Shown here: piece after piece, positions 1 through 60,690 of the stretch | Numbering within the stretch: the stretch's first letter is position 1 | How the letters are laid out: every line of letters starts with the position of its first letter | DNA from: Candidatus Poribacteria bacterium | GTDB taxonomy: Bacteria; Poribacteria; WGA-4E; WGA-3G | Assembly: GCA_026706025.1 (NCBI GenBank) | Contig: JAPOZO010000102.1 | Span: 1-60,690 of the forward strand | DNA: 60,690 nt | Direction: 5' to 3' | Position numbers and translations under genes: made by a program | The notes under the pieces: generated by a model | What the model saw: the letters and a program-made list of their open reading frames with translations, nothing else | Told to the model about the DNA's origin: nothing | Databases searched by the model: none

Positions 1-620
1 TTGGCTGTGTGTACTGTCCGGGTGAAGCGGATAAAACTTCAGGCTGACTATAAGTTCCCGGAGAATCCGACAAAACAGGGTCAGGCTGTGTATACTGCGG
101 TGGAGACGGTGATAGCTGTGGGCTTGGCTGTGTGTACTGTCCGGGTGAAGCGGATAAAACTTCAGGCTGACTATAAGTTCCCGGAGAATCCGACAAAACA
201 GGGTCAGGCTGTGTATACTGCGGTGGAGACGGTGATAGCTGTGGGCTTGGCTGTGTGTACTGTCCGGGTGATGCCGACAACATCGGGTCCGGCTGCGTGT
301 ACTGTCCGGGTGATGCCGACAAAATTTCAGGCTGACTATAGGTTCCCGGAGACGCTGATAAAATCGTTGGTTGCGTGTATGCGCTTGGCGAATCGGAAAG
401 CACGGGTTCCGGTTGCGTGTACCGCGTCGGCGAGGCCGATAACTGCGGACTCGGTTGTGTGTATTGTCCCGGAGACGGCGATAACACCGGGTCCGGCTGT
501 GTATACTGCCCCGGTGAAGGCGACAGCTGCGTAGGCTGAGTATACTGTGCAGGCGAGGGCGATAACACCGGGTCCGGTTGCGTGTATTGTCCTGGTGATG
601 GTGATAAAATTGGAGGCGGT
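1..620. repeat. Tandem coding repeat (123-bp units plus diverged 39-42-bp units)
   Basis: Bases 1-123 and 124-246 are identical 123-bp units (41 codons on the minus strand, made of 14+14+13 residue sub-units). Diverged 39-42-bp units follow to about 620. The same 123-bp unit recurs from about 60297 to the window end, so the array spans the circular junction and its true copy number cannot be read from this contig. Confidence 0.9.
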
Positions 621-931
621 TGCGTGTACTGTGGTGGCGGATCCCTGAGTAAAAGCCTTGAATAATCATTAATCGAGACTCGTCTTGTTGCCGGTTTCTC
701 ATTTCCGCGTTCAGCTTTCAGAATTATATACGAATTAACAGGTAAAGGATTTTCCCATCGGACAACCAAATCTCCACGACGAATAGATGCCGTAATTCCA
801 GCAGAACCCCAAGCCGTAATTTCAGCTGCTACCGAATATTTCAAAAAATCAGAAATATTCCGAATATACGCCACAGTATCATTGTGTCGTATTAAAATAT
901 CTGGAATTCTAAACCATTCTAAGGGGTTCAT
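1..931 (-). CDS. Repeat-stalk tail fibre protein, N-terminal part (continues at 60690)
   Basis: The ATG is at 931 and the frame is open to base 1. Joining through the 25-bp end overlap keeps the frame and continues to the stop at 59752, giving about 614 residues. The first ~100 residues (starting MNPLEWFRIPDILIRH) look like a small beta-rich virion-anchoring domain. After that come 13-14 residue units of the type LSxSPGQYTQPxP, rich in Pro, Ser, Gln and Tyr with almost no charge, which suggests an extended polyproline-like rod. It lies 15 bp after a glycosyltransferase gene and before two large fibre genes, so a tail stalk that may be glycosylated is the best reading. The repeat number is uncertain because the assembly ends inside identical units. 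The family was not recognised. Confidence 0.75.
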   Translation of the reverse strand, partial: MNPLEWFRIPDILIRHNDTVAYIRNISDFLKYSVAAEITAWGSAGITASIRRGDLVVRWENPLPVNSYIILKAERGNEKPATRRVSINDYSRLLLRDPPPQYTQPPPILSPSPGQYTQPDPVLSPSPAQYTQPTQLSPSPGQYTQPDPVLSPSPGQYTQPSPQLSASPTRYTQPEPVLSDSPSAYTQPTILSASPGTYSQPEILSASPGQYTQPDPMLSASPGQYTQPSPQLSPSPPQYTQPDPVLSDSPGTYSQPEVLSASPGQYTQPSPQLSPSPPQYTQPDPVLSDSPGTYSQPEVLSASPGQYTQP

Positions 932-946
932 ACCTATTACCCACAT

Positions 947-2236
947 CTATGCCGCGTCTTTTGCCTGCATCCACTCTTCAGGCCATTCTACTTTTTGACG
1001 AGAATCAAGCCAATCTGAAACAATTACCGGTTTGCCGCTATCAATACGTTGTAGGTATGCATTATGCTGGGGAGCAAGATACTCCCTCGAAAAACGCAAC
1101 CCAGAATCGCGAAGGACATAAGGATCTATTTTATCGAGATTCTCAACAGCATGCACAGCGGCATCAATATTATTAGAATCAACACGGTAACCATTATACC
1201 CATGCTGGATTGTATCAAGGAATCCCCCTGAATTTGCTACGATCGGAACTGTCCCGGAAATCAATGCCTCAATAGCCACACCTCCAAATGTTTCATAAAC
1301 ACGTGCCAGACTTAACACTGCCTTCGCGTGTGATAGAAGATTTCTGCGTTCATCAGCCCCCACATATCCGAGTACTTCAACATTTGGACCCGGTTTTCTA
1401 CCAATTGACGCTTCCAAATCACCCGGTCCCGCTACAATCAATTTCATACCTGTGCGTTCTGCCACTTCTACTGCCTCTGTAATCCCTTTACCCGGTAAAA
1501 TCCGACCCAAGTAGAGGAGATACTCATCTTTCTCGACACTAAAATCAAACAGCGAAATATCATAAGGGTTAGGAATTATAGCGTCAGACAACGGTGGCGT
1601 TTCCCAATCTATACAAGTAAACAGAAGGTGTGGCTTACCATTTTCTATCTGGTGAGCAGCCTCTTTGAGAAAATCCCGCCATTTCAAATTGCTATAATAC
1701 ACGCCATAATGATAGTCACGCATAAAGGTACTTTGAAAAATCCGATACGGTAGAAATGCGCCGATATAACCAATACCAGGTTCAACATGCCGAACTGGGA
1801 GATCCTTTAACTCATGATAAAGATCACGTTGACCGCCAAAAGGAGCTGTCCAATATATGAAATCATCAGGTCTGTATCTTTTTTTCAGCGCGAAACCTGT
1901 ATCAAGTGCCCATCTTTTTCCCAGAAATTCAATTGCTTCTGGATTTTCAGGCTTAACATTTATGTCGATATGTCCCAAATTTTCATGAAAATTCGGATAT
2001 GCCTCTGAGAGTATATCCTCTGATGCGATAATAACTTTTTCATCACATTCCACATCACAAGTTTCGTAACCATAATAGATAACATGATGCCCCGCCGACT
2101 TGAGCATCCAACAATAATTCCGTGCTTTTTGCGACCAATGTGACAAAACGTAGTGCGGATTCGCTGGCGCGGTCGGTGTTCCCATGACATGGCATGTTAA
2201 AGGGTTGTCGTTGGGTAATTCAAAAAACGGATTCAT
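947..2236 (-). CDS. GT4-like glycosyltransferase in the tail module
   Basis: A 429-residue protein with the two-domain layout of GT-B glycosyltransferases. The C-terminal half shows a nucleotide-sugar binding stretch (YLGRILPGKGITEAVEVAER, about residues 241-260) and the GT4 signature with two spaced glutamates (YETFGGVAIEALISGTVPIV, about residues 315-334). There is no signal peptide, so it should act in the cytoplasm. It starts 13 bp after a tail-tip gene and ends 15 bp before the Ser/Thr-rich stalk gene, as part of one minus-strand operon. Phage glycosyltransferases are known to decorate virion proteins or DNA, or to modify receptors. Here the position suggests decoration of the stalk or fibres, which is inference. 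The donor sugar cannot be read. Confidence 0.85.
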   Translation of the reverse strand: MNPFFELPNDNPLTCHVMGTPTAPANPHYVLSHWSQKARNYCWMLKSAGHHVIYYGYETCDVECDEKVIIASEDILSEAYPNFHENLGHIDINVKPENPEAIEFLGKRWALDTGFALKKRYRPDDFIYWTAPFGGQRDLYHELKDLPVRHVEPGIGYIGAFLPYRIFQSTFMRDYHYGVYYSNLKWRDFLKEAAHQIENGKPHLLFTCIDWETPPLSDAIIPNPYDISLFDFSVEKDEYLLYLGRILPGKGITEAVEVAERTGMKLIVAGPGDLEASIGRKPGPNVEVLGYVGADERRNLLSHAKAVLSLARVYETFGGVAIEALISGTVPIVANSGGFLDTIQHGYNGYRVDSNNIDAAVHAVENLDKIDPYVLRDSGLRFSREYLAPQHNAYLQRIDSGKPVIVSDWLDSRQKVEWPEEWMQAKDAA

Positions 2237-2249: not shown

Positions 2250-4496
2250 TTAGTTAAGCGTGACCAGTTTCACAGCCGTTGCTGGCGGCCTCCGAAACGT
2301 ATCTCGAATTTCAAGCACTTGGCAAAGCGTGCCGTTGAGGTGCAGGCGTTCTGGGATTTTCAGAGAGACGACATCGCCGACAGACATATAGAAACTCGAT
2401 TTCAATGTTAGGTTTAGGATCTGGTGAATATCTTTGAAACGTGCGAGGTAACTTTTCGCGAGCCATTCCGCCCAGACGCGCTGATGCGCATCGAGCGGGA
2501 CGGTAACCTCCAAAAGCCGTGCGCCGTTCTCAGCGATAGAGGTCGCATCTTCAACGAGAACCGCCTCACCGTCCCCGTATCGGAGTCGTACCTGATTATA
2601 GAATTGGCGGTTATCATTGTTCGCTATGACTGATTTGATCGGCATCTCCAGTGTGTCGCTGTTTAGTGATAAAATATGGTCAACGAAAGTGATATTGAAT
2701 TTACCGGTATGTGCAGCAGCGGTAGTGTCCTCGGCACCGCGGACAAGATTAGCAAATTCGCCATCGTCATCCGCGCCACTGTGCTGAATAAGTTCACCGT
2801 CAATGAATAGCCAGCCGGTGGTAGGAAACGCGCCCCAGTTGAGTTCATCCGCGGTAACCTCACGCTGTGTCGCGGTGATACCTGATCCGCCGCCGTTGAG
2901 AGCTTTCTGGGGTTCACGGGGCCGCATGAAAAAGGTATCGTTCTTGAAGCCTATGATCGAATTCGTAACGATCGCGATGTCTCTCAACACATCGAACCCT
3001 GTGCGTCCGTTTGTCAGCACCTCGCTGAGGCGTTGATTGATCTGATCGTGGTATTGTATCCAGTTCCAATTCCCGATGCGGTTGACCGGGTGTTCACCGC
3101 GGGGCTGCCCGATGTCGTCAAAATTCCCGAAGCCGGTGATGATATGCAGAACCTCATCTGCTATCACTATCGGTGCAGACGTTCCGCCATGCACCCCGTA
3201 GAAGTAATCCGTTGCCTCGGTGTCCGGGTTATCCGTCGTCGTTGCGCTGCGCCAGTTGCGTCCGACTTCCTGAATTGTCCTTGGTGGGTGTTCAATTTTA
3301 TAGAGGTATCCGACTTTCTCGCGCCAATCGGGATCCGAAAACTCCGTCCCATCCTCGTACATATAATGCGAACCCTCCATAAAATAGAGCACAGTGTCCT
3401 CAACGGTGAGCGAACGCGCTGCGAGCGTTACATCCGAATACGCCTTCAAGATTTCAAATTGGCAATTCGCAGTGTTCACTCTCACCAGTGCGGCACCTGC
3501 CTGTAAGTTCGAGAGAAAGTTTTCCGGGGTATCTGGTATCACGAGATCGCCGTCATCATCAACGGTTTGCGTCAGTTTCCGAATTTGCGTTACGTAGTAG
3601 ACGTAATCGGCAATCTCCACAGGTTCAAAAACGCCGATAAAGGCACCGCCAGCGTTATCACCGAGATGCGGGATGACATCGTTGAGATAGTCGTTCTCGA
3701 TAATATCTTTCTCAAGCACACAGACACTATCAGCACCCGTGACCTGTGCAATTGCCGTTGGCGCGGCGATTTCAAACGTGCGCGAGGTATCATCTTCGGG
3801 ACCGAGGACAGCCGGATTAGAATTCGCCACCTGTGCGATCCGTGCCGAGACGGTAATCGTGGCTTTCGTCTTGGTGTTGGACTGCGGAATCGCGAGGTCG
3901 GCGGTGTACTTACTCGCATCACCGGTGACCTGTGCGAAGTTTCCGAGTGTGCCGACATCGGTATCCGTATCCGTTAGATCGAAATTCTCCATCGGTGCGG
4001 GTGTGCCGTCGGTGTATAGCCAATCGAAAGTAATCGGGACCGGTCTTTCGGTAATAGGGCGTTCAGTAGGCACACCGATTTTGACGATCGGGATTTCGCC
4101 TGCGAGTTGCATTGTGGCATTCGTATCTTCAGCCGGGCCTTTGATACTCGGATCGACTATCAGCGAAGCGGCAAGGCTTCTCACGGTAATTGTCCACTCC
4201 CCCGATCGGAGACTGAACCGTACATCGACAGAGTAGCTACTGGGGCTGTGTTGCGTAAAGTTAAAGAGTTCACCGCCAACACCAGGCGCGAGAGCGCCGA
4301 TACCGAAGCCGACGACCGGTGCAGGCTGATTCAAATTATCGACCCAGTCAAAGCGGATAGTGGCGATACGGCCGCGGTACGGGGATTCGCTCGGCAGCGT
4401 GATGTTGACGGACAGTCCCTGTGTGAGGACTGACGGGGGTTTACTGCCGGAAACGAGCGTGATTGATTGAGAATTGGGTTGTCCACGGAGTGCCAT
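2250..4496 (-). CDS. Tail tip / baseplate protein with N-terminal Ig-like domains
   Basis: 748 residues. The first ~230 contain two or three beta-sandwich modules (patterns such as ITFDWLYTDG and IRFDWVDNLN) that resemble those in the fibre protein at 56886-57959. The rest is a long mixed region ending in a part that resembles the C-terminal half of tail-hub proteins (MSVGDVVSLKIPERLHLNG). It follows the tape measure and distal tail genes in the same operon, which is where a siphovirus hub or tip protein sits. No enzymatic motif was seen. Assignment rests mainly on position and size. Confidence 0.6.
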   Translation of the reverse strand: MALRGQPNSQSITLVSGSKPPSVLTQGLSVNITLPSESPYRGRIATIRFDWVDNLNQPAPVVGFGIGALAPGVGGELFNFTQHSPSSYSVDVRFSLRSGEWTITVRSLAASLIVDPSIKGPAEDTNATMQLAGEIPIVKIGVPTERPITERPVPITFDWLYTDGTPAPMENFDLTDTDTDVGTLGNFAQVTGDASKYTADLAIPQSNTKTKATITVSARIAQVANSNPAVLGPEDDTSRTFEIAAPTAIAQVTGADSVCVLEKDIIENDYLNDVIPHLGDNAGGAFIGVFEPVEIADYVYYVTQIRKLTQTVDDDGDLVIPDTPENFLSNLQAGAALVRVNTANCQFEILKAYSDVTLAARSLTVEDTVLYFMEGSHYMYEDGTEFSDPDWREKVGYLYKIEHPPRTIQEVGRNWRSATTTDNPDTEATDYFYGVHGGTSAPIVIADEVLHIITGFGNFDDIGQPRGEHPVNRIGNWNWIQYHDQINQRLSEVLTNGRTGFDVLRDIAIVTNSIIGFKNDTFFMRPREPQKALNGGGSGITATQREVTADELNWGAFPTTGWLFIDGELIQHSGADDDGEFANLVRGAEDTTAAAHTGKFNITFVDHILSLNSDTLEMPIKSVIANNDNRQFYNQVRLRYGDGEAVLVEDATSIAENGARLLEVTVPLDAHQRVWAEWLAKSYLARFKDIHQILNLTLKSSFYMSVGDVVSLKIPERLHLNGTLCQVLEIRDTFRRPPATAVKLVTLN

Positions 4497-4624
4497 AGTC
4501 GTTGTCTGAATTCAACCCCCTAAAGAATCAACGGTATGAATGCCTTATGGGCATTCCCCGCCCCTTATCAGGGGGACTTTAAAAAGGTTATTTGTATAGC
4601 CCTTCGTCATTTGGCGAAGGGTCC

Positions 4625-5647
4625 TTAGAGTGCTTTTTTGAAAACGAGCGTTTGGCTGCGTCCGCCGCTGAGGAACGTCATGCCACCGATGAGCGTACTC
4701 CGGCTTATATTGAAGCCGATGCCGCCGTGGTTCTCAAAATTGTCCATGTTCATCGTAATGATAGCAGTTGGGGTGGCACCTGCAGTGGCAACTTTCGCAA
4801 CACCAAACTGCGAGTTGCCAGCATCCACATAAGCATAGTATAAGCCGTCATTTTCCCTATAGATCAGCTGCCGTCGCGAGTCGGGTTTCATGAAAACAGA
4901 ACCAACGCCGTGATAATAGTGCGCGAGTTGCGGTTGTAGGCTGACGGTGTGCGAGACAAAAACGGTTTCTGTCTTACTGGTGATGTCCAACTGGATAATT
5001 TGTGTTTCGCAGGAGTTTTCGTTTGCGTCGTAATTCCCACCGGTGGTAGCCAAAATATAAAGTGAAGTCCCGGACTTTGTAAACTTCCACACTTCGGTAG
5101 CAGCTGCGAAGCCGTGCAATTTGGTCTCGGTGCGGGTTGTCTTATCGTATTCAATCACCTGAGAAAACCCGTTCGGATTGTTCCGGTGCTTATTATAGAG
5201 AAAATACCGTTTGTTATTCGCAGTGTCATCCAGCTGATCTGTCACGTATCCATTCCACGTGACAGGATTAGAAGACCCTATATTCCCGATCAGGTCATAC
5301 CCAACGCGTCCATTGCTGGAGAAATGCGCGTCAACATCCTGTGGCGGTATCTCGATTTCGGAATCCGTGATGCCGGCATGCGTCAGAATATCGGCAATCA
5401 CATCTTTTATATGGCGGTACCTGTAAGGCGATTTCATCTTTAGCTGCGGGTAGCCGATGCCCCGATTAACGATAGGTCCGCCTTCCGTTCGCACGCCTTC
5501 GGCATCAACAACAAAGTTTTTTGGGTCCAGGACACCCTCGTTTTTCAACTTCTGAACGGGTGCGATCTCATCACCCACGCGCGTTGCCAACTTAACAGAA
5601 CCATCAGCAGCAGGCAGGATAGAACCCGTTTTCCCCAGATTGCGCAA
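4625..5647 (-). CDS. Tail protein, second part of a split or overlapping gene
   Basis: 340 residues from a TTG start at 5647. The start lies inside the preceding gene, in a frame shifted by +1. The text is beta-rich with repeated strands (for example RQLIYRENDGLYYAYVDAG), suggesting a propeller-like or solenoid fold. It is probably a component of the tail tip because it sits between the distal tail gene and the large tip gene. The poor start, the 44-bp overlap and the fact that the two products read as one continuous protein suggest one gene broken by a frameshift, either programmed or a base error. Confidence 0.6.
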   Translation of the reverse strand: MRNLGKTGSILPAADGSVKLATRVGDEIAPVQKLKNEGVLDPKNFVVDAEGVRTEGGPIVNRGIGYPQLKMKSPYRYRHIKDVIADILTHAGITDSEIEIPPQDVDAHFSSNGRVGYDLIGNIGSSNPVTWNGYVTDQLDDTANNKRYFLYNKHRNNPNGFSQVIEYDKTTRTETKLHGFAAATEVWKFTKSGTSLYILATTGGNYDANENSCETQIIQLDITSKTETVFVSHTVSLQPQLAHYYHGVGSVFMKPDSRRQLIYRENDGLYYAYVDAGNSQFGVAKVATAGATPTAIITMNMDNFENHGGIGFNISRSTLIGGMTFLSGGRSQTLVFKKAL

Positions 5648-6092
5648 GGTCTTCCGTCAACATAAAGTGCCGCGGTATCCCGAAGTCTGCAATCGCTTTC
5701 GTGCGCATATCCCCGAAGTTATCCGTGCAGACGACTTTCACAGTCGCGGGCTTCGCGTCTTGGACGAGGCGGATGATCGTCCCTTTAAAGACAGTTTCAG
5801 TGTGTCGTGTACCGTCCACAATGAAACCCGTCTTGATCTCGACAGGCGAATGTCGTCCAGTGCGTCGTCCCCCGTTTCGCGTGAAAAAGTTCGACGGATT
5901 GTTTGGCGAAAAATCGCCGTGGATGTCTCGGAGCGTGAAACTCGCCTCGCCGACGCGGAACTCTGTAAGGTTCGGGTAGTCAACGCCTCGTACAATATCG
6001 TCCATCGCAGCGATGGCATCTGTCACGTCTTCGTCGTGGATTTTCACTGTGAGGGCTATAGGGTTGCCTTGATAGCTAAAGCGTTTCAGCAT
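5604..6092 (-). CDS. Tail protein, first part of a split or overlapping gene
   Basis: 162 residues beginning with an ATG at 6092. It starts 3 bp after the stop of the upstream tail gene. The beta-rich text with a segment like FTLRDIHGDFSPNNPSNFF resembles N-terminal modules of phage tail-hub proteins, though no named family can be claimed. Its last ~14 codons, after LTEDL, look like an out-of-frame tail (ending YPACC). The +1 frame at that point reads LRNLGKTGSILPAADGSVK, which continues sensibly into the 4625-5647 product. Confidence 0.6.
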   Translation of the reverse strand: MLKRFSYQGNPIALTVKIHDEDVTDAIAAMDDIVRGVDYPNLTEFRVGEASFTLRDIHGDFSPNNPSNFFTRNGGRRTGRHSPVEIKTGFIVDGTRHTETVFKGTIIRLVQDAKPATVKVVCTDNFGDMRTKAIADFGIPRHFMLTEDLAQSGENGFYPACC

Positions 6093-6095
6093 CGG

Positions 6096-6887
6096 TTATG
6101 CCTCCCGCACAGAAAAGGGTACGCGCCGTCCGCCGCCTTTCCAGCGCGAGAGGTACCGAATTTGCGTCTCAGGGTTGGGCCAGAGTGCAGGGAAAACGCG
6201 GTCCGGGTATCGGTTATATTCTGCGGCAAAGACGAAGTTCTTGTATTTCCGAATAAACGAGATGAGGGCATCGGCAATCGTATCGCGTAACCCGCGTGTC
6301 CTCGGTGAAAGGAGTGTTAGGTTAGCGAGCCATTTATCGCGAGTGCCACCAATCGGTGGAACGTAAGAGAGGTTGCCAACAAGGTCATCGTCCACCGCGC
6401 CGAGGTCAATGGAATCGTATTCAATCCGTGAGAGTCCGCCATCGGAATTAAGTGTCAGCAGCCGGTTTAGGACCATGACTTCGTGGATGCGTGGTGATGA
6501 TCCAGTAAAGGTCAAAGTGATAGATTTCGCTTTAGGCTTCGCGGTGCTTTCGTCTGTCCAGAGATTGTGCAGATCGTTTTGGTATCCGTCAACGGTTATT
6601 GGCACACTATCCCCGGAATCGTTTTTGACTGTAGCGGGCAGTGTACGTGCCGCGGGACTGGTAATATGCTCCGGGTTGGTGAACGCTGCCAAGTAGCTGT
6701 TGATGCCGGAGCCTTTGATAAAGATGTCGGTAAAATCGCGCGCCGTGCCGGAGCCATCGCCAGCCGTGTCGATGTGCAGGAGCATAGAGGTCTCTGACGT
6801 GAAGGTGTTATAGTCGTTATCTGCTACGGCTCTATACTGAGATCTACCGCCGCCATAGTTCAAAGGATAATCAAAAAATTGCGCCAT
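6096..6887 (-). CDS. Distal tail-like protein
   Basis: 263 residues with no signal or membrane segment. It is placed directly after the tape measure gene (3-bp gap), the usual position of the distal tail protein that caps the tube and anchors the tip. The sequence is beta-rich in the middle (KSITLTFTGSSPRIHEVMVL) with an alpha segment (RGLRDTIADALISFIRKYKN) towards the end. The call is from position; the family was not recognised from motifs. Confidence 0.5.
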   Translation of the reverse strand: MAQFFDYPLNYGGGRSQYRAVADNDYNTFTSETSMLLHIDTAGDGSGTARDFTDIFIKGSGINSYLAAFTNPEHITSPAARTLPATVKNDSGDSVPITVDGYQNDLHNLWTDESTAKPKAKSITLTFTGSSPRIHEVMVLNRLLTLNSDGGLSRIEYDSIDLGAVDDDLVGNLSYVPPIGGTRDKWLANLTLLSPRTRGLRDTIADALISFIRKYKNFVFAAEYNRYPDRVFPALWPNPETQIRYLSRWKGGGRRVPFSVREA

Positions 6888-10007: not shown

Positions 10008-10479
10008 CTAAGAGTGCGTTGTGGAGGCTCATCACATAAAACGGGTCCCATGTCCGCATATCTTCAGCAGTCAAACCGGGGTGGCTAATGATACACGACT
10101 CAAGGATATTCAAGAGTTTCGTATCGTATTTCTTGACAGCGAGTTCATCTTGCAGCTTTTGTTCTTGCTCATCGTCAATTTCAATTTCACTTTCAGGATC
10201 AGGAATTCTGGCACTGGAAGCCTCGATGAGCGTGTGTCCGAGTAGCGTTTGGTAATAGATCGCTGTTTCGCCGGGTGTCATCGGTCGCATTTCAAAGTCA
10301 ATCGGGTCACCCCCTTCGGGGTCCGGGAAGCGAGCGACGATATTATCTGCTTCCAGTTTCTTTCCGAGTTTCTTCAAATCTCTGATGAAGTTAAGTTCGC
10401 CTTGTACCTCTTTCCGTTGCAATACTTGTGGCGAGTTGACGGCAGCCTTCGCCGCGATGTCTTCCATTTTTTTCGTCAT
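9943..10479 (-). CDS. Tail assembly chaperone (G-like)
   Basis: 178 residues, acidic and helical, no membrane segment. The start codon overlaps the stop of the tail tube gene by 4 bp (ATGA), showing translational coupling. Position between tube and tape measure genes, small size and an overlapping open frame downstream identify it as the chaperone that coats the tape measure during tail assembly. The central segment RMTPGETAIYYQTLLGH resembles no motif I can name. The extended form would be made by a +1 (or -2) frameshift into the frame at 9756-10007. Confidence 0.75.
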   Translation of the reverse strand: MTKKMEDIAAKAAVNSPQVLQRKEVQGELNFIRDLKKLGKKLEADNIVARFPDPEGGDPIDFEMRPMTPGETAIYYQTLLGHTLIEASSARIPDPESEIEIDDEQEQKLQDELAVKKYDTKLLNILESCIISHPGLTAEDMRTWDPFYVMSLHNALLGGSRPSKSVAQFPNVDSAGGE

Positions 10480-15632: not shown

Positions 15633-16268
15633 ATGAAACACCGGCTTGACCAGTACATCATCAATTTGCTTAAAGAAAAGGGCGAGATGCGTTCAAAAGA
15701 CATCTACGCCTCGATGCCCGAACAAGAACGCAATTTAAAGTCGCGGTTGGGTCTTCTGAAGAAAGATGGCATAGTTGTGGTTCGGGACCGATTCTACTAT
15801 AGTCTGCCCACAGATACATCTTCGGTCGCCACAAAAACACGCCCCGATGAAAAACTCGACCAGATTTCCAAGCAACTGAAGCGCACAGAAGCCGACAATG
15901 AAGTGACAATTAACAAAGCACTCTTGCTCTTTGACAAAGTGCTTGACGATGCCGCAGAAACGATTGAAGGTGAACTTTACACCAAAGCGACAATGGCAGA
16001 TAAGGTTGACCTGATAAAAAGTCTGCGCTGGTTAGGTGCGACGCTCGATCAATTGATGAAACGCTGGAATCTCGAGCATCACGGTTACGACACGAATACA
16101 CGTCAGGCACAGGAAGATGCGAAAGCGAAAACCACAGAACGCGAGAAAGAGGCACTTGAGAACGCACCGCTTGAAGACAGAATTGTTGTTGTCGCACATT
16201 ACCAAGAGGGCATGCAGGAGATTTTGAGAAACCTGCCGAAGAAGGAATTAGAAGATAGAAAAGTCTAA
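15633..16268 (+). CDS. Terminase small subunit-like protein
   Basis: 211 residues. The N-terminal ~60 residues form a winged-helix-like DNA-binding domain (YIINLLKEKGEMRSKDIYAS, then LKSRLGLLKKDGIVVVRDR). The middle and end are helical and charged, as expected for an oligomerising small terminase. Its stop overlaps the large terminase start (TAATG). The five direct repeats just upstream would be natural binding sites. No small-terminase family signature can be claimed with certainty, but no other role fits the position as well. Confidence 0.65.
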   Translation: MKHRLDQYIINLLKEKGEMRSKDIYASMPEQERNLKSRLGLLKKDGIVVVRDRFYYSLPTDTSSVATKTRPDEKLDQISKQLKRTEADNEVTINKALLLFDKVLDDAAETIEGELYTKATMADKVDLIKSLRWLGATLDQLMKRWNLEHHGYDTNTRQAQEDAKAKTTEREKEALENAPLEDRIVVVAHYQEGMQEILRNLPKKELEDRKV

Positions 16269-41756: not shown

Positions 41757-41757
41757 T

Positions 41758-42378: not shown

Positions 42379-42395
42379 AGTATTATCTCCATTCT

Positions 42396-51217: not shown

Positions 51218-54200
51218 ATGTCAAATCGATTGACATTTTCCTTAGCAAGTTTAATTCTAATGTTCGCTTTCGTGGCGATGCCCGTAATGGCGCACGATAA
51301 TGCCGGTGGTGATGATGCAACCACTCCGCGTCCGCATTCGCATCCATTGACAGAAGGCCTTGATGCAGCTACAGATGCTGCTGATGTAACAGCAGGCAGA
51401 GCAGGAACAGCAGTTACAACACACGATACTCACCCCACAGTGATGTCCATCGTAGCGACACCTGATGCGGCGGACGCGACCCTTCGAACAAGCGACGGAC
51501 GGGATGTCATACTCCTTGATTCCACTGCAACTGACCCTACTGCTTTGACGATAGCGGCGGGTGGTGGTACCGGTGTCTTTAACGTGAGAGTCACGTTTAG
51601 TGGAACGTTGGCTTCTGATGCTGTGTTAGCATCTAGCGAAGTTACGGTCAGAGCCCGGAAACCTGATGGAACACCTATTACTACTGGAGTTTCCGTCGGT
51701 AGTACTGTTACTGGTGATGCTGGGCAAAATGTATTTGATGTGCCAATTGAAGTCACTGCTGATGCTTATTGGGATGCTACTGCTACCCCTGCTGCGTCCA
51801 ACTTGCCTATAGAGGTATTTATAGATGTAGCCAGAGATGCGGTGGCGACTGGAACAACAAGTAATGCGCATGGCGTAACACTGAATCCTGCATCCAGTGA
51901 TGCTTATATGTCTGATTCAATGACGAAGTTCACTATCGTGGATGAGCTTGATGCTGAAAACATGCGTCCGACCCTTACTATTAGTGATACCACACCTGAA
52001 CCTACAGCTGCAGTAACAACCGGCTCGTTTAACATCATGTATACCACTATGGATGCCGATATGGACACAGTTACGGTTGCAGCGGAAGTTACTAGTGTGA
52101 TTCCGGCAGGTGCGATGGCGCATTATAGTGTTGATACATCTGTAGACGGTACGGTTACAGTGATGCAGGCGATGCCTACTGCCACTATGATGACTGTTCC
52201 AGGGGCAGCTGTTACGGTGACCCTAACACCCAGCGATTCTGCAGCTGGAATGCCTGTAACGTTTAACATTCTCTTTGCTGAGGCAACGTATACTGATCCT
52301 GGCGAGACTGATATGGGCGACATGCTTGAAGCCGGTGATTACCTCGTTGTTGTCCGAGATGCGTCTATGGTAACATCGGGCTACTTCGGTGCCAACGGCC
52401 CCTCGATGGCTGATGTGCACGTATGGGCTGATATGCCGAACCTGGAAAGACTGTTTAGCGTAGGCGGTAAACTGGAACTGACTGTTACAGGTGCGACAAC
52501 TCGACAGGTCGTTATCAGCGAAGTTATGTGGGCTGTTGATAACCGGTTAATCGGTGACGATGCGTATGACGATGGCCAGTGGATTGAAATCCATAACCGC
52601 ACATCCGGTGATGGTGCTAAAGACTTTGCTATTTCTGGTATAACGCTTAATGCAGCAGAAGGACGTTTTCCTACACCTACCACGACTGACTGGCTCATGA
52701 ACACGCCTTCTGGTGATAGATGGACAGTTCCTGGTCAGAGCGGTAACAGCGGTGATGCTGAAGGTGCTGGTAAAGTGGAATTCGTCTCCGTGTGGCGTAA
52801 CAACTACGGTGAACCCGGTCATCAATCGAATCGCTGGACGGCATCCTCAGAGTTGTATAAACCGAACCATAAAGGCACGCCTGGTATGAAAGAGCGTCCT
52901 AACTTCGGTGGTGTTACACCAACGCCCGCGAACCGTGGACCCGTTATCTTTAACGAGATTTCCAACAACGACAATCCAGCCTACGAATGGATTGAACTTC
53001 GTAACGTCACTGACGGTGAAGTTAACCTCAAAAACTGGGAAATCACGATTGTAACCTCTAAAGGTGCAAACCAAGCCAACCATAACGCTGTTGAGTTCAT
53101 TCAGTTCCCGAATGCTGACCGGAAGATGGCAGCTGGCAGTCTCCTGCTTGTCGTGGCGACAGATCCGAGAAGCGATGACGATCATCCGTTACAGACAGGT
53201 TGGGATATTACGAAGGGCGCAGGTGATCAGATCAACGGTGTCAACCAGGAAACATCCCCACGTTATATCGTTCTTCCGTTCAAGACCGCCAAAGGGAAAG
53301 GTACTACCACCGATCTAAACGAAAGCGGTATGCCGGATGATGGCGAATTCGTGTTGATCCTGCGAAATCGCGGTGATCGGACCAGTTCCAACAACGATAA
53401 CAACGTCCGTGATGTCGCAGGTTATGTGCCAGGTAGAGCTTTGGCTACTAATGATGACGCTACAGGTCTATGGCCCCTAGCCAATTTCCCGCAACCGAAT
53501 TGGGATAACAATAAGTTAGCAGCGGGAATAGTTCAAAAGCGTGCGTTTGCTGATATTGATGGTACGAAGTCGAAAGACAAGAACCAGAACGACAAAACAG
53601 CTTTCCGTGATGATAATAACCGTTGGACGGGTATCGGTTATAGAAGGAATGCCGCTGCAAATAATCAGAACGGCGGAACACCTGGGTATCCGAATGGTGC
53701 CCTGCAAAGTAATGAGACCGAGGCAGGCGCGGAACCTGTGATTATCAGCGAAGTTATGTACGCCACGGGTAGCCGTGCGAACATACCGCAGTGGATTGAA
53801 CTCTACAACACGTCAAAAACAGTCGGTGTTAATTTAGACGGTTGGCGCGTTACTATCATCAACCATGACCAAGATGTCGGTGGTGAGACATTCGCCGGTG
53901 ATCTGAATAAGGATTACGCTATTAATGGTAAGATCCCACCGGGTCAGACGTTCCTGCTTGTCGCCTATCCGGGTCGTGATGATACGAAACTCCCAGACGA
54001 ACGTATCGAAACGCTCCGTGGCAACCGCGGTGAATTGATCCTGAGTCAGTATGGCTTTGAGATCACCCTGCTAACGAAGGGCAAGGACAATAAGGACGCG
54101 AATCGTAAACTGGCTGATAGAGTCGGTAACCTCGCTGCTGTCGCAGAAGGTGCGGGTCGTGTCCGTAGAAATCCACAATCCTACGAAGATCCTGCTTGGA

Positions 54201-54766
54201 TGTTGCCAATGGGTACGAATGACGATGGTGATCGTATCTCTATTGTCCGTGCTTCTATAATGGGCGATCCTATCAATGGGCAGCTGTCAGGTGCCTGGAA
54301 TAGGTTTGATATGAGCGGGCAGTTCGTTTCAACGCTTGACGCGACCTCCTATGGTCACGGAACTGATCTCAGTTCCCCAGGTCATACCGTTGGTGGTGTG
54401 CTCCCCGTATCGCTTTCTAAGTTCCGTCCGGAACGGATGAAAGACACTGGCGCAGTCGTTATCCGTTGGGTCACCGAATCTGAATTGAACAACGCTGGAT
54501 TCAACATCCTGCGGAGTGAAACGCGAGACGGTGAGTTCACGAAGCTTAACACGAAATTGATCGCAGGTCAAGGCACGACGAGTGAGCGTACGACTTACGA
54601 GTATGCCGATACATCTGCGAAACCCAATGTCGTCTACTACTACCAGATCCAAGATGTTTCCCTTGACGGTCAGGTTCAGACCTTGCGTCAGAGCCGTCTG
54701 AAAGGGAACGTCACAGCGGCTGGTAAACTCACAACGACATGGGGTGAACTAAAAGCGTTGCAGTAA
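51218..54766 (+). CDS. Secreted lamin-tail-domain surface protein
   Basis: 1182 residues with a signal peptide (residues 1-25, ...MPVMA-HDNA) and a GGAGGA ribosome site. The first ~420 residues are Thr/Asp/Ala-rich Ig-like repeats. Lamin-tail domains follow at about 430-520 (RQVVISEVMWAVDNR), 570-690 (PVIFNEISNNDNPAYEWIEL) and 840-960 (PVIISEVMYATGSRANIPQW). The end (VSLSKFRPERMKDTGAVVIR, NAGFNILRSE) is a fibronectin-like or sorting domain. Such proteins are abundant in Poribacteria-like genomes. On a phage-plasmid it probably changes the lysogen's surface. It is far larger than its neighbours. Confidence 0.85.
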   Translation: MSNRLTFSLASLILMFAFVAMPVMAHDNAGGDDATTPRPHSHPLTEGLDAATDAADVTAGRAGTAVTTHDTHPTVMSIVATPDAADATLRTSDGRDVILLDSTATDPTALTIAAGGGTGVFNVRVTFSGTLASDAVLASSEVTVRARKPDGTPITTGVSVGSTVTGDAGQNVFDVPIEVTADAYWDATATPAASNLPIEVFIDVARDAVATGTTSNAHGVTLNPASSDAYMSDSMTKFTIVDELDAENMRPTLTISDTTPEPTAAVTTGSFNIMYTTMDADMDTVTVAAEVTSVIPAGAMAHYSVDTSVDGTVTVMQAMPTATMMTVPGAAVTVTLTPSDSAAGMPVTFNILFAEATYTDPGETDMGDMLEAGDYLVVVRDASMVTSGYFGANGPSMADVHVWADMPNLERLFSVGGKLELTVTGATTRQVVISEVMWAVDNRLIGDDAYDDGQWIEIHNRTSGDGAKDFAISGITLNAAEGRFPTPTTTDWLMNTPSGDRWTVPGQSGNSGDAEGAGKVEFVSVWRNNYGEPGHQSNRWTASSELYKPNHKGTPGMKERPNFGGVTPTPANRGPVIFNEISNNDNPAYEWIELRNVTDGEVNLKNWEITIVTSKGANQANHNAVEFIQFPNADRKMAAGSLLLVVATDPRSDDDHPLQTGWDITKGAGDQINGVNQETSPRYIVLPFKTAKGKGTTTDLNESGMPDDGEFVLILRNRGDRTSSNNDNNVRDVAGYVPGRALATNDDATGLWPLANFPQPNWDNNKLAAGIVQKRAFADIDGTKSKDKNQNDKTAFRDDNNRWTGIGYRRNAAANNQNGGTPGYPNGALQSNETEAGAEPVIISEVMYATGSRANIPQWIELYNTSKTVGVNLDGWRVTIINHDQDVGGETFAGDLNKDYAINGKIPPGQTFLLVAYPGRDDTKLPDERIETLRGNRGELILSQYGFEITLLTKGKDNKDANRKLADRVGNLAAVAEGAGRVRRNPQSYEDPAWMLPMGTNDDGDRISIVRASIMGDPINGQLSGAWNRFDMSGQFVSTLDATSYGHGTDLSSPGHTVGGVLPVSLSKFRPERMKDTGAVVIRWVTESELNNAGFNILRSETRDGEFTKLNTKLIAGQGTTSERTTYEYADTSAKPNVVYYYQIQDVSLDGQVQTLRQSRLKGNVTAAGKLTTTWGELKALQ

Positions 54767-54819
54767 TAGCAACAACTCGGTTATTCAGGGAGAAGTCTAT
54801 AACCGAACTAACCTAACGC

Positions 54820-54850
54820 AAAAGCGGTGGATTCCCTGTCCACCGCTTTT
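54820..54850 (+). terminator. Rho-independent terminator after the lamin-tail gene
   Basis: AAAAGCGGTGGA and TCCACCGCTTTT form a 12-bp stem around TTCCCTG. Confidence 0.9.
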
Positions 54851-55010
54851 CATATTTAATAGTAGTCAGTACGGTTTTCTGCGAAAACCTTTCAGTTGTT
54901 AGTTGTCAGTTAAGAGAGAATAGAAGTCGGTGTGGTTTGTGATTGATGCCACGCCTTTTTTGTTTTATAACTGGTTTGTGCTTTTTTGCTTTTTGTGATA
55001 CACTCTTAAG

Positions 55011-55047
55011 AACTTGCTGGGCAGGGATTCCATCTCGGCGCGCTCCA
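55011..55047 (-). repeat. 37-bp dispersed repeat (inverse copy of 40827)
   Basis: Matches the reverse complement of 40827-40863 except for three bases. Confidence 0.75.
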
Positions 55048-55078
55048 GCAGTGGTTAGCATTCAGATAAGGAAAAAAA

Positions 55079-56026
55079 ATGAATAGACTTCAACGCCCTT
55101 TCTACTGCCTACTCATCCTAATACTCAGCGTCCTGGCATGCGACGAAGCAGACCTAACGCAAACACTCAACGATATAACAAGCGATGACTATGCTGGCAT
55201 GGTGCTAATCCCGGCTGGCGAGGTGACAATCGGAAACCCGAACGCACTCTCCACCCGTCCGGCACCTGTTCGCAGCGTTCACACCGATGCCTACTGGATA
55301 GACACACACGAGGTATCTTATGCAGAATTCAAGGCATTTATGGAGGACACCAGCTACAGTCCGGCTTCCTTACAGGACCATGAACGCGCAGCACAGGGCT
55401 TATCCATCGACACGCTCCCGGCGGTTGTTACATGGAAAGACGCAAGTGCCTATGCCGACTGGATCGGTAAAAGGCTGCCAACGGAAATAGAGTGGGAAAA
55501 AGCGGCGCGCGGCGGACTTGAAAATAAACGGTTTTCGTGGGGCGATGCTACGCCAACCCTTGCCGAGCAGCAAGAAATCATTATCTCGTATCTTGGCAGC
55601 GGGCAATTTACACAGATGGCAGCAGAGGGGGCTTTCGTATTTCACCCATTCACCGGGCGAGATGTCGGCGGCAGTGATGGCGACTCCACAGGCAGTGCTT
55701 TTACTTTTATGCCTGTCGGCTCCTATGCCCCGAATGGTTATGGACTTTACGATGTGATCGGAAACGCAGCCGAATTCTGTCAGGAGAGGTGGGAGGGTAA
55801 CTACTACAAGGATCCCTATTCTTTTACTCCGCCAGAGGCAACACCCCCAGTATACGTTGTCCGAGGCGGCGGTAGCCTACACAGTTTAGACGCAATCAAT
55901 TCTTGGGAACATCAGTTTGATACATTACCGGCTGAGCTACAATACCGATATGCGCGCCGCACCATCCACATCGGTGAACGTGCGGGATCCAGTTGGGCAG
56001 GTTTTCGTCTCGTTCGCGATCCCTAA
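55079..56026 (+). CDS. Lipoprotein with formylglycine-generating-enzyme (SUMF1) fold
   Basis: 315 residues. The signal ends in the lipobox LSVLAC (Cys about residue 21), so it is anchored to a membrane. The domain begins MVLIPAGEVTIGNPNALSTR, and the family signature RLPTEIEWEKAARGG (about residues 132-146) and GNAAEFCQERW are present. The paired catalytic cysteines of true enzymes are not obvious, so it may be a binding protein with the C-type-lectin-like fold. It follows the lamin-tail gene and may act with it at the cell surface. Confidence 0.88.
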   Translation: MNRLQRPFYCLLILILSVLACDEADLTQTLNDITSDDYAGMVLIPAGEVTIGNPNALSTRPAPVRSVHTDAYWIDTHEVSYAEFKAFMEDTSYSPASLQDHERAAQGLSIDTLPAVVTWKDASAYADWIGKRLPTEIEWEKAARGGLENKRFSWGDATPTLAEQQEIIISYLGSGQFTQMAAEGAFVFHPFTGRDVGGSDGDSTGSAFTFMPVGSYAPNGYGLYDVIGNAAEFCQERWEGNYYKDPYSFTPPEATPPVYVVRGGGSLHSLDAINSWEHQFDTLPAELQYRYARRTIHIGERAGSSWAGFRLVRDP

Positions 56027-56885: not shown

Positions 56886-57959
56886 TTAGCTGCCGATAGG
56901 ACCGCGAACGGCGTTTTCTCTGAGGGTGAGGTTGAGGATACCGGTATTTTGGGGATCCGGGAACCTTATCAAGAAATACTGTCCTTCTTCGCCGTGCCAT
57001 TGGCCATCGGTATCAAAACCGTTCTGGTTCGGTGTCGGATCGCCCGCAGGCGGTGTTGCGAGTAGCGTCCAGTCGGTGCCAGTCAGATCGGCAGGCATGG
57101 CGGCATGTATATCCGGTGGCGAAGTGCCAGTCCATTTATAGGGGAGTGCTGTCCCGAGTCGCACGCCCTCCTCGATAAAAATCTCTGTCAGCGTATTATT
57201 GACGTGCCACCCTGTGACCAATACATTGAATGCAACGAGCACATCAACAGGGGTGCCGAGGTCATAATTCGCGGGTATCTCGTAATCGACGATGCGTGGG
57301 ACGATGGTCCCGTAACTCACCGTTTTCGGTGTGGCAACCACCACGTTATCCCAAACGCCACTACTCGCTTTCAGAGCGTATCCATCCGCCGACACCACAA
57401 ACCGCCCCTGCTTTTCCTCCGCAATGTGAACGACCAACGCATACGCCGCATCCTCGCCAACGAGATAGTACGCCGCTATCCCCAAAATCCCATCGCCGGC
57501 GTTGCTACTCGGATCGCTAAACTGAAAAATTGTCTTACTCGGCGCGATCACATTCTCACCGAAAGTGACAGGGAGCACGACCACGCCACTGTCTCGATAG
57601 TCCACTGTGCCGAAGGCGACAGAGATCGTTGTGATGTTATCGTAAGCCACCGTCACCGGCGTTGAAACCACTGCTTCCGGTGTACTGCTGCCCTCACGCG
57701 TCACCATCCCCGTGATCGCGACTTGCAGCGAGCCCTTCACATCTTCGGGCAGTTGGAACATCACGTTATGCGTCGCCGAATTCATATCGTCATCCGGCAG
57801 CACTTCAAACATCACACCTGTGATACCGTTGCCCGACACAGGTGTGACCGTAAGCGTGGCAGCCGTTAAATCTGTAACGCTAACCTCCAGCGTTATATTG
57901 ACTGTGAAATTTCCGGGTTGTGTGCCTGAAGGGGCGGTTATAGTTGCATTGATTGCCAT
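56886..57959 (-). CDS. Tail fibre protein with Ig-like domains
   Basis: 357 residues without signal or membrane segment, composed of two or three beta-sandwich modules (PGNFTVNITLEVSVTDLTAA; YGTIVPRIVDYEIPANYDLG). It resembles the N-terminal modules of 2250-4496 in style. It is the last gene of the tail operon, 4 bp after the preceding gene. Possibly the distal receptor-binding protein. Confidence 0.65.
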   Translation of the reverse strand: MAINATITAPSGTQPGNFTVNITLEVSVTDLTAATLTVTPVSGNGITGVMFEVLPDDDMNSATHNVMFQLPEDVKGSLQVAITGMVTREGSSTPEAVVSTPVTVAYDNITTISVAFGTVDYRDSGVVVLPVTFGENVIAPSKTIFQFSDPSSNAGDGILGIAAYYLVGEDAAYALVVHIAEEKQGRFVVSADGYALKASSGVWDNVVVATPKTVSYGTIVPRIVDYEIPANYDLGTPVDVLVAFNVLVTGWHVNNTLTEIFIEEGVRLGTALPYKWTGTSPPDIHAAMPADLTGTDWTLLATPPAGDPTPNQNGFDTDGQWHGEEGQYFLIRFPDPQNTGILNLTLRENAVRGPIGS

Positions 57960-57963
57960 AATA

Positions 57964-59715
57964 TTATGTTAATGCGTCTAAAAATACCGGATTGTCCAAA
58001 CCAGATGGTAGAAACAGATGAAAATCCCAAATGTAACGAGTTGCGTGAACTTCAGGGTTTATTCTAAAAATTGTAAGATAAGTGGAATCTCTGCTATATA
58101 TATTATTACCTATCACCTTAAATCCAGTGCCAATAGTAATCTGAGTCTGTGCACTCTGGTTGTAAAAAGGAATCTCTCTATTTTGACTAAATTTTTCACG
58201 ATCAAAAGCCCGTAATCTATAAGTATTATGGACACGGTTTATAATACGTCCCCATATTTCTTCTGCCGTTACCGATAGTCCTTCAGCACTAATACTTACA
58301 GTATTCGATCCAGTTCTCCTTGTTAATTCTGTGCCATTGGCAGACGGTATAGGAATCACTGACATTCCTCGCCACTGCGTATGTCCCTGACTGAAATAGA
58401 TATACAATTCATTATTATACTCCCCCATTCCTTCAGCGATAAGATTAGCACCGGCTGCGCTTGGAAAAGTATTTTTTCTATCTTGCGTAAGCCGAGATCC
58501 GTCGGCAGCACTTTCTATCGTATCCGCTTCAAAAGTATAAAGTGCTTTTTCATCAGCTGAACCACCCAAGTTCAGTATAAAAACATCACCATTACGATTA
58601 ACAGCAAGTCCGCCGAAATCCGGTCTCATTAAAGTAGTTGGCAGCAGCAACCTTTTTATACGAGGCGCTATAGTTCCGTTAGGAGCCCCCGTGTGAAAAA
58701 TATACAGCTCGTTATTGGTTCTATCTGATGATTTATACTCAATGGAATAAACAGTTCGTCCTCCATAAACCAGCACAGAAACAGGCGTATCAGAGATCCA
58801 AGGGCTTGCTACACGAAAAAAGGCCCTATACACCTGACCTTCTTCAAGGTTTGGGATAATTATCGTTATCATATTGTTCGCGATTGTGATAACCGCATCT
58901 GTCCATTCGGTCAATTCCCCGCTATCAACATTTTCGATCTGATACTGATAAGCGTTTGCACCGGATACCACGGGGAACTTTATGGTCGCGCTTAAGTGTC
59001 CGGGTTCAACAGTAGTATTCCGCAGGTCGATATTCCCGCGCCCTGTACCAAATCGATTCCAATTATCATCACCATCAAACTGCCATTCATATTCGATGGC
59101 GTGCTGTACGTCCGGGAGAGTAACTTCCGCAAAATTCCCGAACAGTCCGCTCACAACCGGTGTCCCTAATGCGGGCGGCGCGCCTGCTTCAATCGTATAC
59201 GGTTGATTTTTCATCACATCACCTCCTATATGCGGTGCTACCAGTTCGATAACCCCTTGCGATACCGTGAAATTAGCATCCGCACTAATCTCTCCATCTA
59301 CTAATGCACCTTCCGAGTTCGTTTCCAATCCTAAGCCGAGCAATAAAGTATTGGCAGTGACTTCGTTCGGCGGATTCGCAATCGGAATTGGAAGATTAAT
59401 AGGCACACCCCGATACAGATGAATATCCGGCAACGTACCAAAAATCGGTGCGGCGGGTATAACATTGAACGCTATATCCCTTTCAAGTATAGTATTGTCC
59501 GAATAAGTTGCTTCTATGTGCCAGTTTAATCCATTTAACAACTCTCTCGGAGTCCCATAGATTTTTACCTCGTTATCGGATGACCGCCAATCATATCCGA
59601 AGTATTTCATATCCCCAGTAACCTCCACAGTTGTCGGGTTACCGGTAATTGAGACCGGCAGGCGGTAATCTGTATCAATAATTATGTTTTGCTCGGATAC
59701 CATCGCAATCGACAT
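57964..59715 (-). CDS. Large tail fibre / spike protein
   Basis: 583 residues. N-terminal beta-rich domains (residues 1-180), a fibronectin-like part at about 200-330 (VVSGANAYQYQIENVDSGEL, ...FFRVASPW), then repeated blades with LYIFHTGAPNG and LYIYFSQGH that suggest a beta-propeller. It probably binds host surface. It follows the stalk gene with 36 bp between. Confidence 0.65.
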   Translation of the reverse strand: MSIAMVSEQNIIIDTDYRLPVSITGNPTTVEVTGDMKYFGYDWRSSDNEVKIYGTPRELLNGLNWHIEATYSDNTILERDIAFNVIPAAPIFGTLPDIHLYRGVPINLPIPIANPPNEVTANTLLLGLGLETNSEGALVDGEISADANFTVSQGVIELVAPHIGGDVMKNQPYTIEAGAPPALGTPVVSGLFGNFAEVTLPDVQHAIEYEWQFDGDDNWNRFGTGRGNIDLRNTTVEPGHLSATIKFPVVSGANAYQYQIENVDSGELTEWTDAVITIANNMITIIIPNLEEGQVYRAFFRVASPWISDTPVSVLVYGGRTVYSIEYKSSDRTNNELYIFHTGAPNGTIAPRIKRLLLPTTLMRPDFGGLAVNRNGDVFILNLGGSADEKALYTFEADTIESAADGSRLTQDRKNTFPSAAGANLIAEGMGEYNNELYIYFSQGHTQWRGMSVIPIPSANGTELTRRTGSNTVSISAEGLSVTAEEIWGRIINRVHNTYRLRAFDREKFSQNREIPFYNQSAQTQITIGTGFKVIGNNIYSRDSTYLTIFRINPEVHATRYIWDFHLFLPSGLDNPVFLDALT

Positions 59716-59751
59716 AATTCATCCTATCGTTAAGAGTTACAAAAATTACAA

Positions 59752-60690
59752 CTAACTATCACCTTCCAGTGCCGTTATTCTTGTCCCGAAATCCGCAAGA
59801 ACCGCATGCACCGTTATAGCAGGCACGCCATAATAAACCCTATTCGAGTTCATCACAAGATTACCCGAATAATCTTGAAATGGCGTATTCGCAATAACTA
59901 AATCCCTAAATGAATTATCGTTAAGAACCAAAATGCCTGGTGGTGTCGATGTTAAAATTGGCTCAGGCTGGCTATAAGCCGCCGGTGATGGTGAAAGTTG
60001 CGGCTCAGGCTGGCTATAAGCCGCCGGTGATGGTGAAAGTTGCGGGTCCGGTTGCGTGTACTGCCCTGGAGACGGTGATAACTGTGGGCTTGGCTGTGTG
60101 TACTGTGGTGGCGAGGCAGACAACACCGGATTCGGTTGCGTATACTGTCCTGGAGATGCGGACAGCATTTCAGGCTGACTATAAGTTCCCGGTGAATCCG
60201 ACAAAACAGGGTCCGGCTGTGTGTACTGCCCTGGAGACGGCGATAACTGTGGACTCGGCTGTGTGTACTGTGGTGGCGAGGCAGACAACACCGGGTTTGG
60301 CTGTGTGTACTGTCCGGGTGAAGCGGATAAAACTTCAGGCTGACTATAAGTTCCCGGAGAATCCGACAAAACAGGGTCAGGCTGTGTATACTGCGGTGGA
60401 GACGGTGATAGCTGTGGGCTTGGCTGTGTGTACTGTCCGGGTGAAGCGGATAAAACTTCAGGCTGACTATAAGTTCCCGGAGAATCCGACAAAACAGGGT
60501 CAGGCTGTGTATACTGCGGTGGAGACGGTGATAGCTGTGGGCTTGGCTGTGTGTACTGTCCGGGTGAAGCGGATAAAACTTCAGGCTGACTATAAGTTCC
60601 CGGAGAATCCGACAAAACAGGGTCAGGCTGTGTATACTGCGGTGGAGACGGTGATAGCTGTGGGCTTGGCTGTGTGTACTGTCCGGGTGA
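59752..60690 (-). CDS. Repeat-stalk tail fibre protein, C-terminal part (starts at 931)
   Basis: The frame is open from the window end to the stop at 59752. It continues the Pro/Ser/Gln/Tyr repeats (LSPSPPQYTQPDPV, LSDSPGTYSQPEV and LSASPGQYTQPSPQ) and then leaves the repeat for a ~65-residue end (ILVLNDNSFRDLVIANTPFQ ... ITALEGDS), which looks like a trimerisation or fibre-docking domain. An internal ATG at 60615 is not the true start. The full gene with the part at 1-931 encodes about 614 residues. Confidence 0.75.
   Translation of the reverse strand, partial: SPGQYTQPSPQLSPSPPQYTQPDPVLSDSPGTYSQPEVLSASPGQYTQPSPQLSPSPPQYTQPDPVLSDSPGTYSQPEVLSASPGQYTQPSPQLSPSPPQYTQPDPVLSDSPGTYSQPEVLSASPGQYTQPNPVLSASPPQYTQPSPQLSPSPGQYTQPDPVLSDSPGTYSQPEMLSASPGQYTQPNPVLSASPPQYTQPSPQLSPSPGQYTQPDPQLSPSPAAYSQPEPQLSPSPAAYSQPEPILTSTPPGILVLNDNSFRDLVIANTPFQDYSGNLVMNSNRVYYGVPAITVHAVLADFGTRITALEGDS
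59950..60690. repeat. Tandem coding repeats, second half of the stalk array
   Basis: From about 59950 the units are diverged. From about 60297 four starts of the same 123-bp unit occur 123 bp apart (60297, 60420, 60543, 60666), the last cut by the window end. The last 25 bases equal bases 1-25. Confidence 0.9.

Follow-up and report, generated by a model that had tools for sequence, protein, structure and literature searches.

A putative phage-plasmid lineage of Candidatus Poribacteria combining siphovirus-like virion genes with a Rep_3 iteron replicon

Phage-plasmids, of which the P1-like and the Leptospira LE1-like elements are known types, carry virion and packaging genes together with plasmid replication genes on one replicon; partition genes are common in them, not universal. 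The DNA analyzed here (the window) is the 60,690-nucleotide contig JAPOZO010000102.1 of a Candidatus Poribacteria bacterium, which is the whole of contig C102 in a metagenome-assembled genome (MAG; G000) of 6.27 Mb in 103 contigs. Similar to the known types, the window joins virion and packaging genes to plasmid replication and partition genes; it differs from them in its host phylum. We consider it very probable that the window represents a temperate poribacterial phage, siphovirus-like in its virion genes, which as a prophage would exist as a circular low-copy plasmid. Its assignment to a new lineage within a known class of elements is well supported, and a phylum of uncultured animal symbionts would thereby enter the phage-plasmid world with named markers (TerL, capsid, Rep, and iterons).

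Poribacteria have been listed among newly covered virus hosts in a paper whose available sections discuss extrachromosomal prophages in general (eLife 2015, PMC4533152). A Poribacteria phage has been imaged in a sponge, in a report whose accessible text does not use the word plasmid (PMC8245591). IMG/VR has been mined for phage-plasmid-like elements, and sponge, Porifera, and Poribacter are absent from the main text of that work (PMC13221032); the accessible parts of PMC4451026 and PMC12977533 contain nothing on Poribacteria phage-plasmids. The first-pass annotation of this DNA knew of no phage-plasmid from this host group with this gene set, and we found no earlier report of one in the PMC literature, preprints and most subscription papers lying outside that search.

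The structural and packaging genes of a virion are present in the window (Table 1). The terminase large subunit (TerL), portal, capsid, tube, and tape measure genes claimed by the first-pass annotation were all recognized by profile hidden Markov models, the tube protein weakly and with no PHROG match. The core genes for head and tail have open frames, are arranged in the order seen in G063:C177, a 78.7 kb contig from a MAG of the same genus, and are mostly 70–92% identical to their counterparts there. The true start of the major capsid gene probably lies downstream of position 21733. Since no tail sheath was recognized among the genes of the window, the particle appears to be siphovirus-like with a long tail. 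Within the tail operon, the glycosyltransferase gene directly precedes a Pro/Ser-rich gene that crosses the contig junction, perhaps indicating a glycosylated fibre. The genes that separate the tail operon from the head operon are bracketed by an 86% inverted repeat (13529–13616 and 15407–15494), and this segment could be invertible by the tyrosine recombinase.

The plasmid module comprises a Rep_3 initiator with iterons and a partition locus, both as originally annotated. The N- and C-terminal Rep3 domains (WH1 and WH2) score above the curated cut-offs, and direct repeats of about 22 bp stand beside rep, the seven iterons lying 340–500 bp upstream of it. Repeats with a 22-bp period but other sequences occur upstream of Rep in 10 of the 13 poribacterial relatives scanned. 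They are absent in G062:C178 and G062:C202, which have 54- and 32-bp units, and none was seen at the Rep gene of G075:C103, where only 169 bp of upstream sequence is present. In the partition locus, a Walker-type ParA gene is followed by a small gene for a ribbon-helix-helix (RHH) DNA-binding protein, and the ParA/CbiA and RHH matches exceed the curated cut-offs. The parA start is likely at 42378, giving 206 aa, and the true RHH gene is likely 41496–41756, abutting parA. Upstream of parA, the window contains 10-bp and 16-bp repeats that might act as a centromere for the RHH protein; relatives have other forms, with none found in two of seven.

The termini of the window share an exact 271-bp overlap, which consists throughout of a 123-bp tandem repeat (period kept at 148/148 positions), the end array beginning at 60297. 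Collapsing the overlap gives a circle of 60,419 bp, whose true count of 123-bp units may differ. The Pro/Ser-rich junction gene remains open through the join to 59752, as the first-pass annotation had observed, and encodes 537 aa in the collapsed form; its start is corrected from 931 to the ATG at 946. As 123 is divisible by 3, the frame is preserved with any whole number of units, and neither the overlap nor the open frame is by itself proof of a circle. We therefore rejected circularity from the end overlap alone and relied instead on synteny in G063:C177. In that contig, the homologue of the tail gene 57964–59715 directly adjoins a glycosyltransferase gene (29% identical to that at 947–2236 of the window), and the homologue of 2250–4496 is located about 4.5 kb beyond it. 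No counterpart of the junction repeat gene was found between these neighbours. Since genes from both ends of the window are thus neighbours inside a related contig, a circle of about 60.4 kb, repeat number aside, is well supported by gene order, and at this level both modules would reside on one circular molecule. Of the earlier description as "complete circular", the circular order stands, and the element is likely complete apart from its number of 123-bp units.

Continuation of the ends into other sequence, which the first-pass annotation had named as counter-evidence, was not seen in DNA searches of the MAG: positions 1–946 matched the window itself only (14/14 candidates scored), and among the 51 matches to 49501–60690 (40 of 258 candidates scored), none carries the 59.7–60.7 kb end onward onto a different contig. 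Among 25 related stretches, no end overlap of 15–1000 bp was detected (0/16 and 0/9), a result informative only for 14 whole contigs (11 and 3). An attempt to close the G068 element from contigs C16 and C22, which have 31,790 identical bp in common, failed because the remaining ends do not meet. The gene orders of G075:C103 (Rep first, tail genes last) and G068:C16 (tail, then Rep) are compatible with a circle and do not prove one.

TerL was found in 20 and Rep in 27 of 84 genomes of the phylum, at 1e-20 and 1e-10, respectively. A TerL match of at least 70% identity that spans three quarters or more of the protein occurs at ten places. Rep_3 is also on the contig at four of them (the window, G062:C178, G075:C103, and G068:C16; TerL at least 72%), and the three contigs other than the window show 72–75% identity to it in TerL and 57–60% in Rep. 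A further contig, G063:C79, carries Rep plus a weaker TerL (63–74% by piece). Judged by these gene contents, the combination recurs within the phylum and is no one-off, in agreement with the phage-plasmid interpretation first proposed. ParA relatives occur together with TerL in the window, G062:C178, G063:C177, G069:C82, and G088:C38; none was found on G075:C103, G068:C16, or the first 40 kb of G068:C22 (G033:C37 is outside this count). G088:C38 (62.7 kb) has ParA and the recombinase without Rep_3, and a Pfam search of nine of its open reading frames (ORFs) gave no replication initiator; this element may use another replicator.

G063:C177 itself lacks Rep, its TerL being 78% identical to that of the window. 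Another contig of the same MAG, G063:C104, contains a Rep with 87% identity and four ORFs that flank the window's Rep, as well as the start of a gene that by eye looks like the first part of the lamin-tail gene in the window. C177 itself begins with the terminal part of a lamin-tail-like gene (82% over 56 aa). These features suggest that C177 and C104 are two parts of one split replicon. Similarly, the IMG/VR record 2744054414_000001 (45,816 bp) looks, from a comparison of coordinates only, like the phage part of a 95,903-bp contig bearing Rep and ParA. Because of these two cases, plasmid halves may be split off in assemblies and viral catalogues, and if so, metagenomic phage-plasmids are undercounted.

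In IMG/VR, Poribacteria phage contigs carry TerL proteins 76–92% identical to that of the window; Rep was detectable in none of the seven related records, each possibly a fragment. Identity of TerL to known phages and plasmids is far lower, at most 29.6% in INPHARED (best 20 of 472 records) and at most 26.9% in PLSDB (best 10 of 35 records), where Leptospira matches are present. The capsid and Rep gave no tblastn match in INPHARED. The closest Rep sequences listed outside the phylum belong to Rep_3/RepB plasmids of Rhodobacteraceae and their kin (34–37%, best 20 of 1,754 records); these are plasmid records, whereas the window's Rep accompanies poribacterial iterons and virion genes. A 21-row TerL tree groups 12 of its 13 poribacterial rows in a single clade (99/99), with the very divergent TerL of G000:C64 falling outside it. 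The homology check proposed at first pass thus yielded relatives with TerL and Rep together and a poribacterial TerL clade, whose placement against outgroups is weak and long-branched.

The host group was assessed from the same material. The capsid matched nine genomes, each of them a MAG titled Candidatus Poribacteria. Two MAGs congeneric with that of the window, G062 and G063, agree in match positions and scores with G011 and G009, which were reached from two capsid-hit MAGs. The window and the rest of its MAG have several dispersed intergenic repeats in common. Furthermore, contig C10 of the MAG carries a paralogue of the lamin-tail-domain gene that begins at 51218, and the DNA of the two is 85% identical across a 1.35-kb stretch at the gene's end; the neighbours of this paralogue are presumably a hisF-like and an aminotransferase-like gene, named by reading only. 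On these sequence grounds the host belongs to the Poribacteria, and mis-binning is unlikely. Short repeats at 42532–42665, 47830–47969, 13419–13531, 26785–26890, and 4502–4586 recur on many contigs of the MAG and resemble miniature inverted-repeat transposable elements or repetitive extragenic palindromic sequences.

Several observations weigh against a phage with a plasmid prophage state. The overlap of the ends is entirely tandem repeat, the element encodes a tyrosine recombinase, and at six of the ten TerL places Rep_3 is missing from the contig, several of these contigs being fragments. In addition, the 5.8-Mb genome G097, a single contig, contains one isolated partial TerL (74%) whose surrounding 80 kb yielded neither portal nor capsid relatives, and on G069:C82 sequence from the ParA side is joined to a chromosomal region around hemA. 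An ordinary integrated prophage would account for some of these points: the recombinase, which has PHROG integrase matches and is conserved in relatives, would be an integrase, the circle an excised form, and Rep and Par leftovers of recombination with a plasmid. Against this explanation, the Rep with its iterons and the ParA/RHH genes are open and kept in relatives, and no clearly chromosomal gene was recognized on the window or among the G062:C178 ORFs read; those outside the phage part appear mobile-element-like by eye, DprA-like and helicase-like ones among them. The join in G069:C82 lies at a multi-copy element away from the recombinase gene. Chromosomal genes identified by eye (hemA, hemB, and others) extend to 34.5 kb, phage-plasmid genes begin at about 35.6 kb, and copies of the intervening element of about 915 bp occur in many genomes, frequently at the ends of contigs. 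This arrangement reflects either a chimeric join at a repeat or integration mediated by an insertion sequence, and is no evidence for site-specific integration. We consequently judge the integrated prophage unlikely.

Equally improbable, in our assessment, is a plasmid that captured a phage block and no longer works as a phage. A similar Rep backbone does occur in G092, a genome with no TerL hit, where the 15.2 kb contig C185 carries a Rep of 86% identity and five neighbours of 55–91%, and one cargo gene of the window has a host paralogue. Against such decay stand the open core head and tail genes in their conserved order, together with close kin that occur as phage contigs in IMG/VR. An assembly artefact, in which unrelated contigs were joined or falsely circularized, would fit ends that lie within a tandem repeat, a typical break point; it is nevertheless very unlikely, as both the pairing of modules and the gene order across the ends recur on related contigs, and repeats dispersed in the MAG also occur along the window. 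A temperate phage maintained as a plasmid accordingly remains our preferred reading.

For such a phage-plasmid, the gene content suggests the following course. Rep_3 would bind the 22-bp iterons at 48.5 kb and drive theta replication in an extrachromosomal state, ParA and its RHH partner would segregate the copies, and the compact tyrosine recombinase would resolve multimers or integrate the element. The Cro/C1-type repressor (30464–30847) would hold lysogeny. On induction, the tandem winged-helix protein encoded at 46.2–47.2 kb may start lytic replication, and TerL would package the genome into long-tailed capsids, producing virions. The iteron region is also a candidate autonomously replicating origin for bacteria without genetics.

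Table 1. Predicted features of the window, with coordinates, strands, and supporting matches
Feature	Position	Strand	Evidence or remark
Junction gene, 5' part	1..946	-	ATG at 946; next in-frame ATG at 931
Glycosyltransferase group 1, within tail operon	947..2236	-	PF00534, 5e-21
Tail tip/baseplate genes, four ORFs (tentative)	2250..6887	-	PHROG 1101 tail protein, 0.0011, for 2250-4496; 76-84%, same order in G063:C177
Tape measure protein	6891..9719	-	TMP_3 (Pfam), 1.7e-9, just below cut-off; seven PHROG tape-measure families, 1e-8
Tail tube protein	10476..11969	-	Phage_tube_2, 2.4e-4, below cut-off; conserved place near tape measure
Terminase large subunit (TerL)	16268..17713	+	PHROG 2, 9.6e-27; 76-92% to seven IMG/VR contigs
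Portal protein with C-terminal extension	17746..20091	+	PHROG 3753, 2e-10; PHROG 24776 (unknown function), 1e-23
Head maturation/scaffold-like protein (tentative)	20037..21200	+	Weak PHROG matches; between portal and capsid; 48-77% in five fetched relatives
Major capsid protein	21733..23325	+	PHROG 3922 major head protein, 5e-12; 68-89% in relatives
Neck/tail completion protein (tentative)	24377..24883	+	PHROG 26, 0.0034
Cro/C1-type repressor candidate	30464..30847	-	HTH_3, 3e-10; PHROG transcriptional repressor, 1e-9
Compact tyrosine recombinase, catalytic domain only	37080..37718	-	PF00589, 3e-29; PHROG integrase matches
Type II DNA methyltransferase	38717..40009	-	PADLOC MTase_II, 5e-76; PF01555, 5e-18
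RHH partner of ParA	41496..42014	-	Antitox_RHH, 5e-17
ParA partition ATPase	41758..42423	-	PF01656, 1e-15; PHROG 164 ParA-like, 9e-38
Tandem winged-helix protein, candidate second (lytic) initiator	46214..47170	-	AlphaFold2 pLDDT 86; PHROG replication initiation protein, 4e-6
Seven 22-bp iterons, presumed plasmid origin	48497..48655	+	22-bp spacing; further copies at 48660 and 48771
Rep_3 replication initiator	48997..50301	+	PF21205 (Rep3 C), 2e-17; PF01051 (Rep3 N), 7e-13
Cargo: lamin-tail-domain protein and FGE-sulfatase-domain protein	51218..56026	+	PF00932, 2e-24; PF03781, 3e-43
Two tail fibre-like genes, end of tail operon (tentative)	56886..59715	-	51% to G063:C177 6024-8828, beside glycosyltransferase there
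Junction gene, 3' part	59752..60690	-	Runs across join to 946; Pro/Ser-rich repeat protein

The AlphaFold2 model of the tandem winged-helix protein contains two winged helices, at the predicted local distance difference test (pLDDT) score given in Table 1. Aligned with the RepE54 initiator across both winged helices, it gives Z scores of 7.3–8.1 and root-mean-square deviations of 4.6–5.4 over 169–184 aa, values tied with those of unrelated winged-helix rows. Its best Foldseek match in the PDB is YceH, which is no initiator, and a replication initiator and replication protein O are among the five best BFVD rows. PDB sequence searches with this protein and with Rep returned nothing useful. Relatives of the protein occur in 13 of the 84 genomes, including that of the window. 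The model is consistent with a lytic-phase initiator or helicase loader, and its likeness to initiators suggests that plasmid and lytic replication may be initiated separately.

The recombinase retains the columns R..K..HxxR..H..Y, which we take to be the catalytic set of tyrosine recombinases, in all seven aligned copies. Compact tyrosine recombinases form a FimB/FimE size class, and the window's enzyme is alike in its length of about 200 aa, in consisting of the catalytic domain only, and in its kept catalytic residues; it differs in its linkage to parA and virion genes. From this context, multimer resolution is the favoured role and integration a possible one. Of the restriction-modification system described at first pass, the methyltransferase is confirmed, and no restriction enzyme was recognized in Pfam or PADLOC: the neighbouring ORFs at 38176–38700 and 37715–38179 have no match at 0.01, and the candidate restriction partner has no relatives in IMG/VR. 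A single-sequence model of the 38176–38700 product was useless (pLDDT 37). Any assignment of a restriction half is a guess. Among the other genes, the lamin-tail-domain protein has a signal peptide by eye, and the ORF at 36089–36781 encodes 21-aa tandem repeats (63-bp unit, 6.6 copies).

We tentatively propose, as a possibility with less in its favour than the phage-plasmid assignment itself, that these elements constitute a Poribacteria lineage in which one conserved virion chassis is placed on interchangeable Rep_3/iteron backbones, with a second, phage-type initiator for lytic growth, and that virion-less plasmids built on such a backbone circulate among these hosts. Hints come from the G092 Rep and its neighbours found without a TerL hit, from the four Rep_3 genes of G000 with differing upstream repeats, and from the contigs in which TerL is closer to the window than Rep is (72–75% versus 57–60%). 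The C177/C104 pair counts against the proposal, being close in both proteins (TerL 78%, Rep 87%). Interchangeable backbones with different iterons would probably belong to different incompatibility groups.

Additional copies of these genes were noted elsewhere in the phylum. G061:C1 (5.3 Mb, single contig) has six TerL copies at about 56–62%; the one 60-kb stretch read there shows no relatives of the window's portal or capsid. The MAG of the window contains four Rep_3 genes (on C102, C64, C85, and C38, the last copy cut by the contig end) with 58–74% mutual identity; the 22-bp repeat units upstream of them differ, and several compatible replicons are likely. In G095, a three-contig genome, both Rep_3 and the tandem winged-helix family are represented by three genes each on contig C2 (288,641 bp), perhaps a large plasmid.

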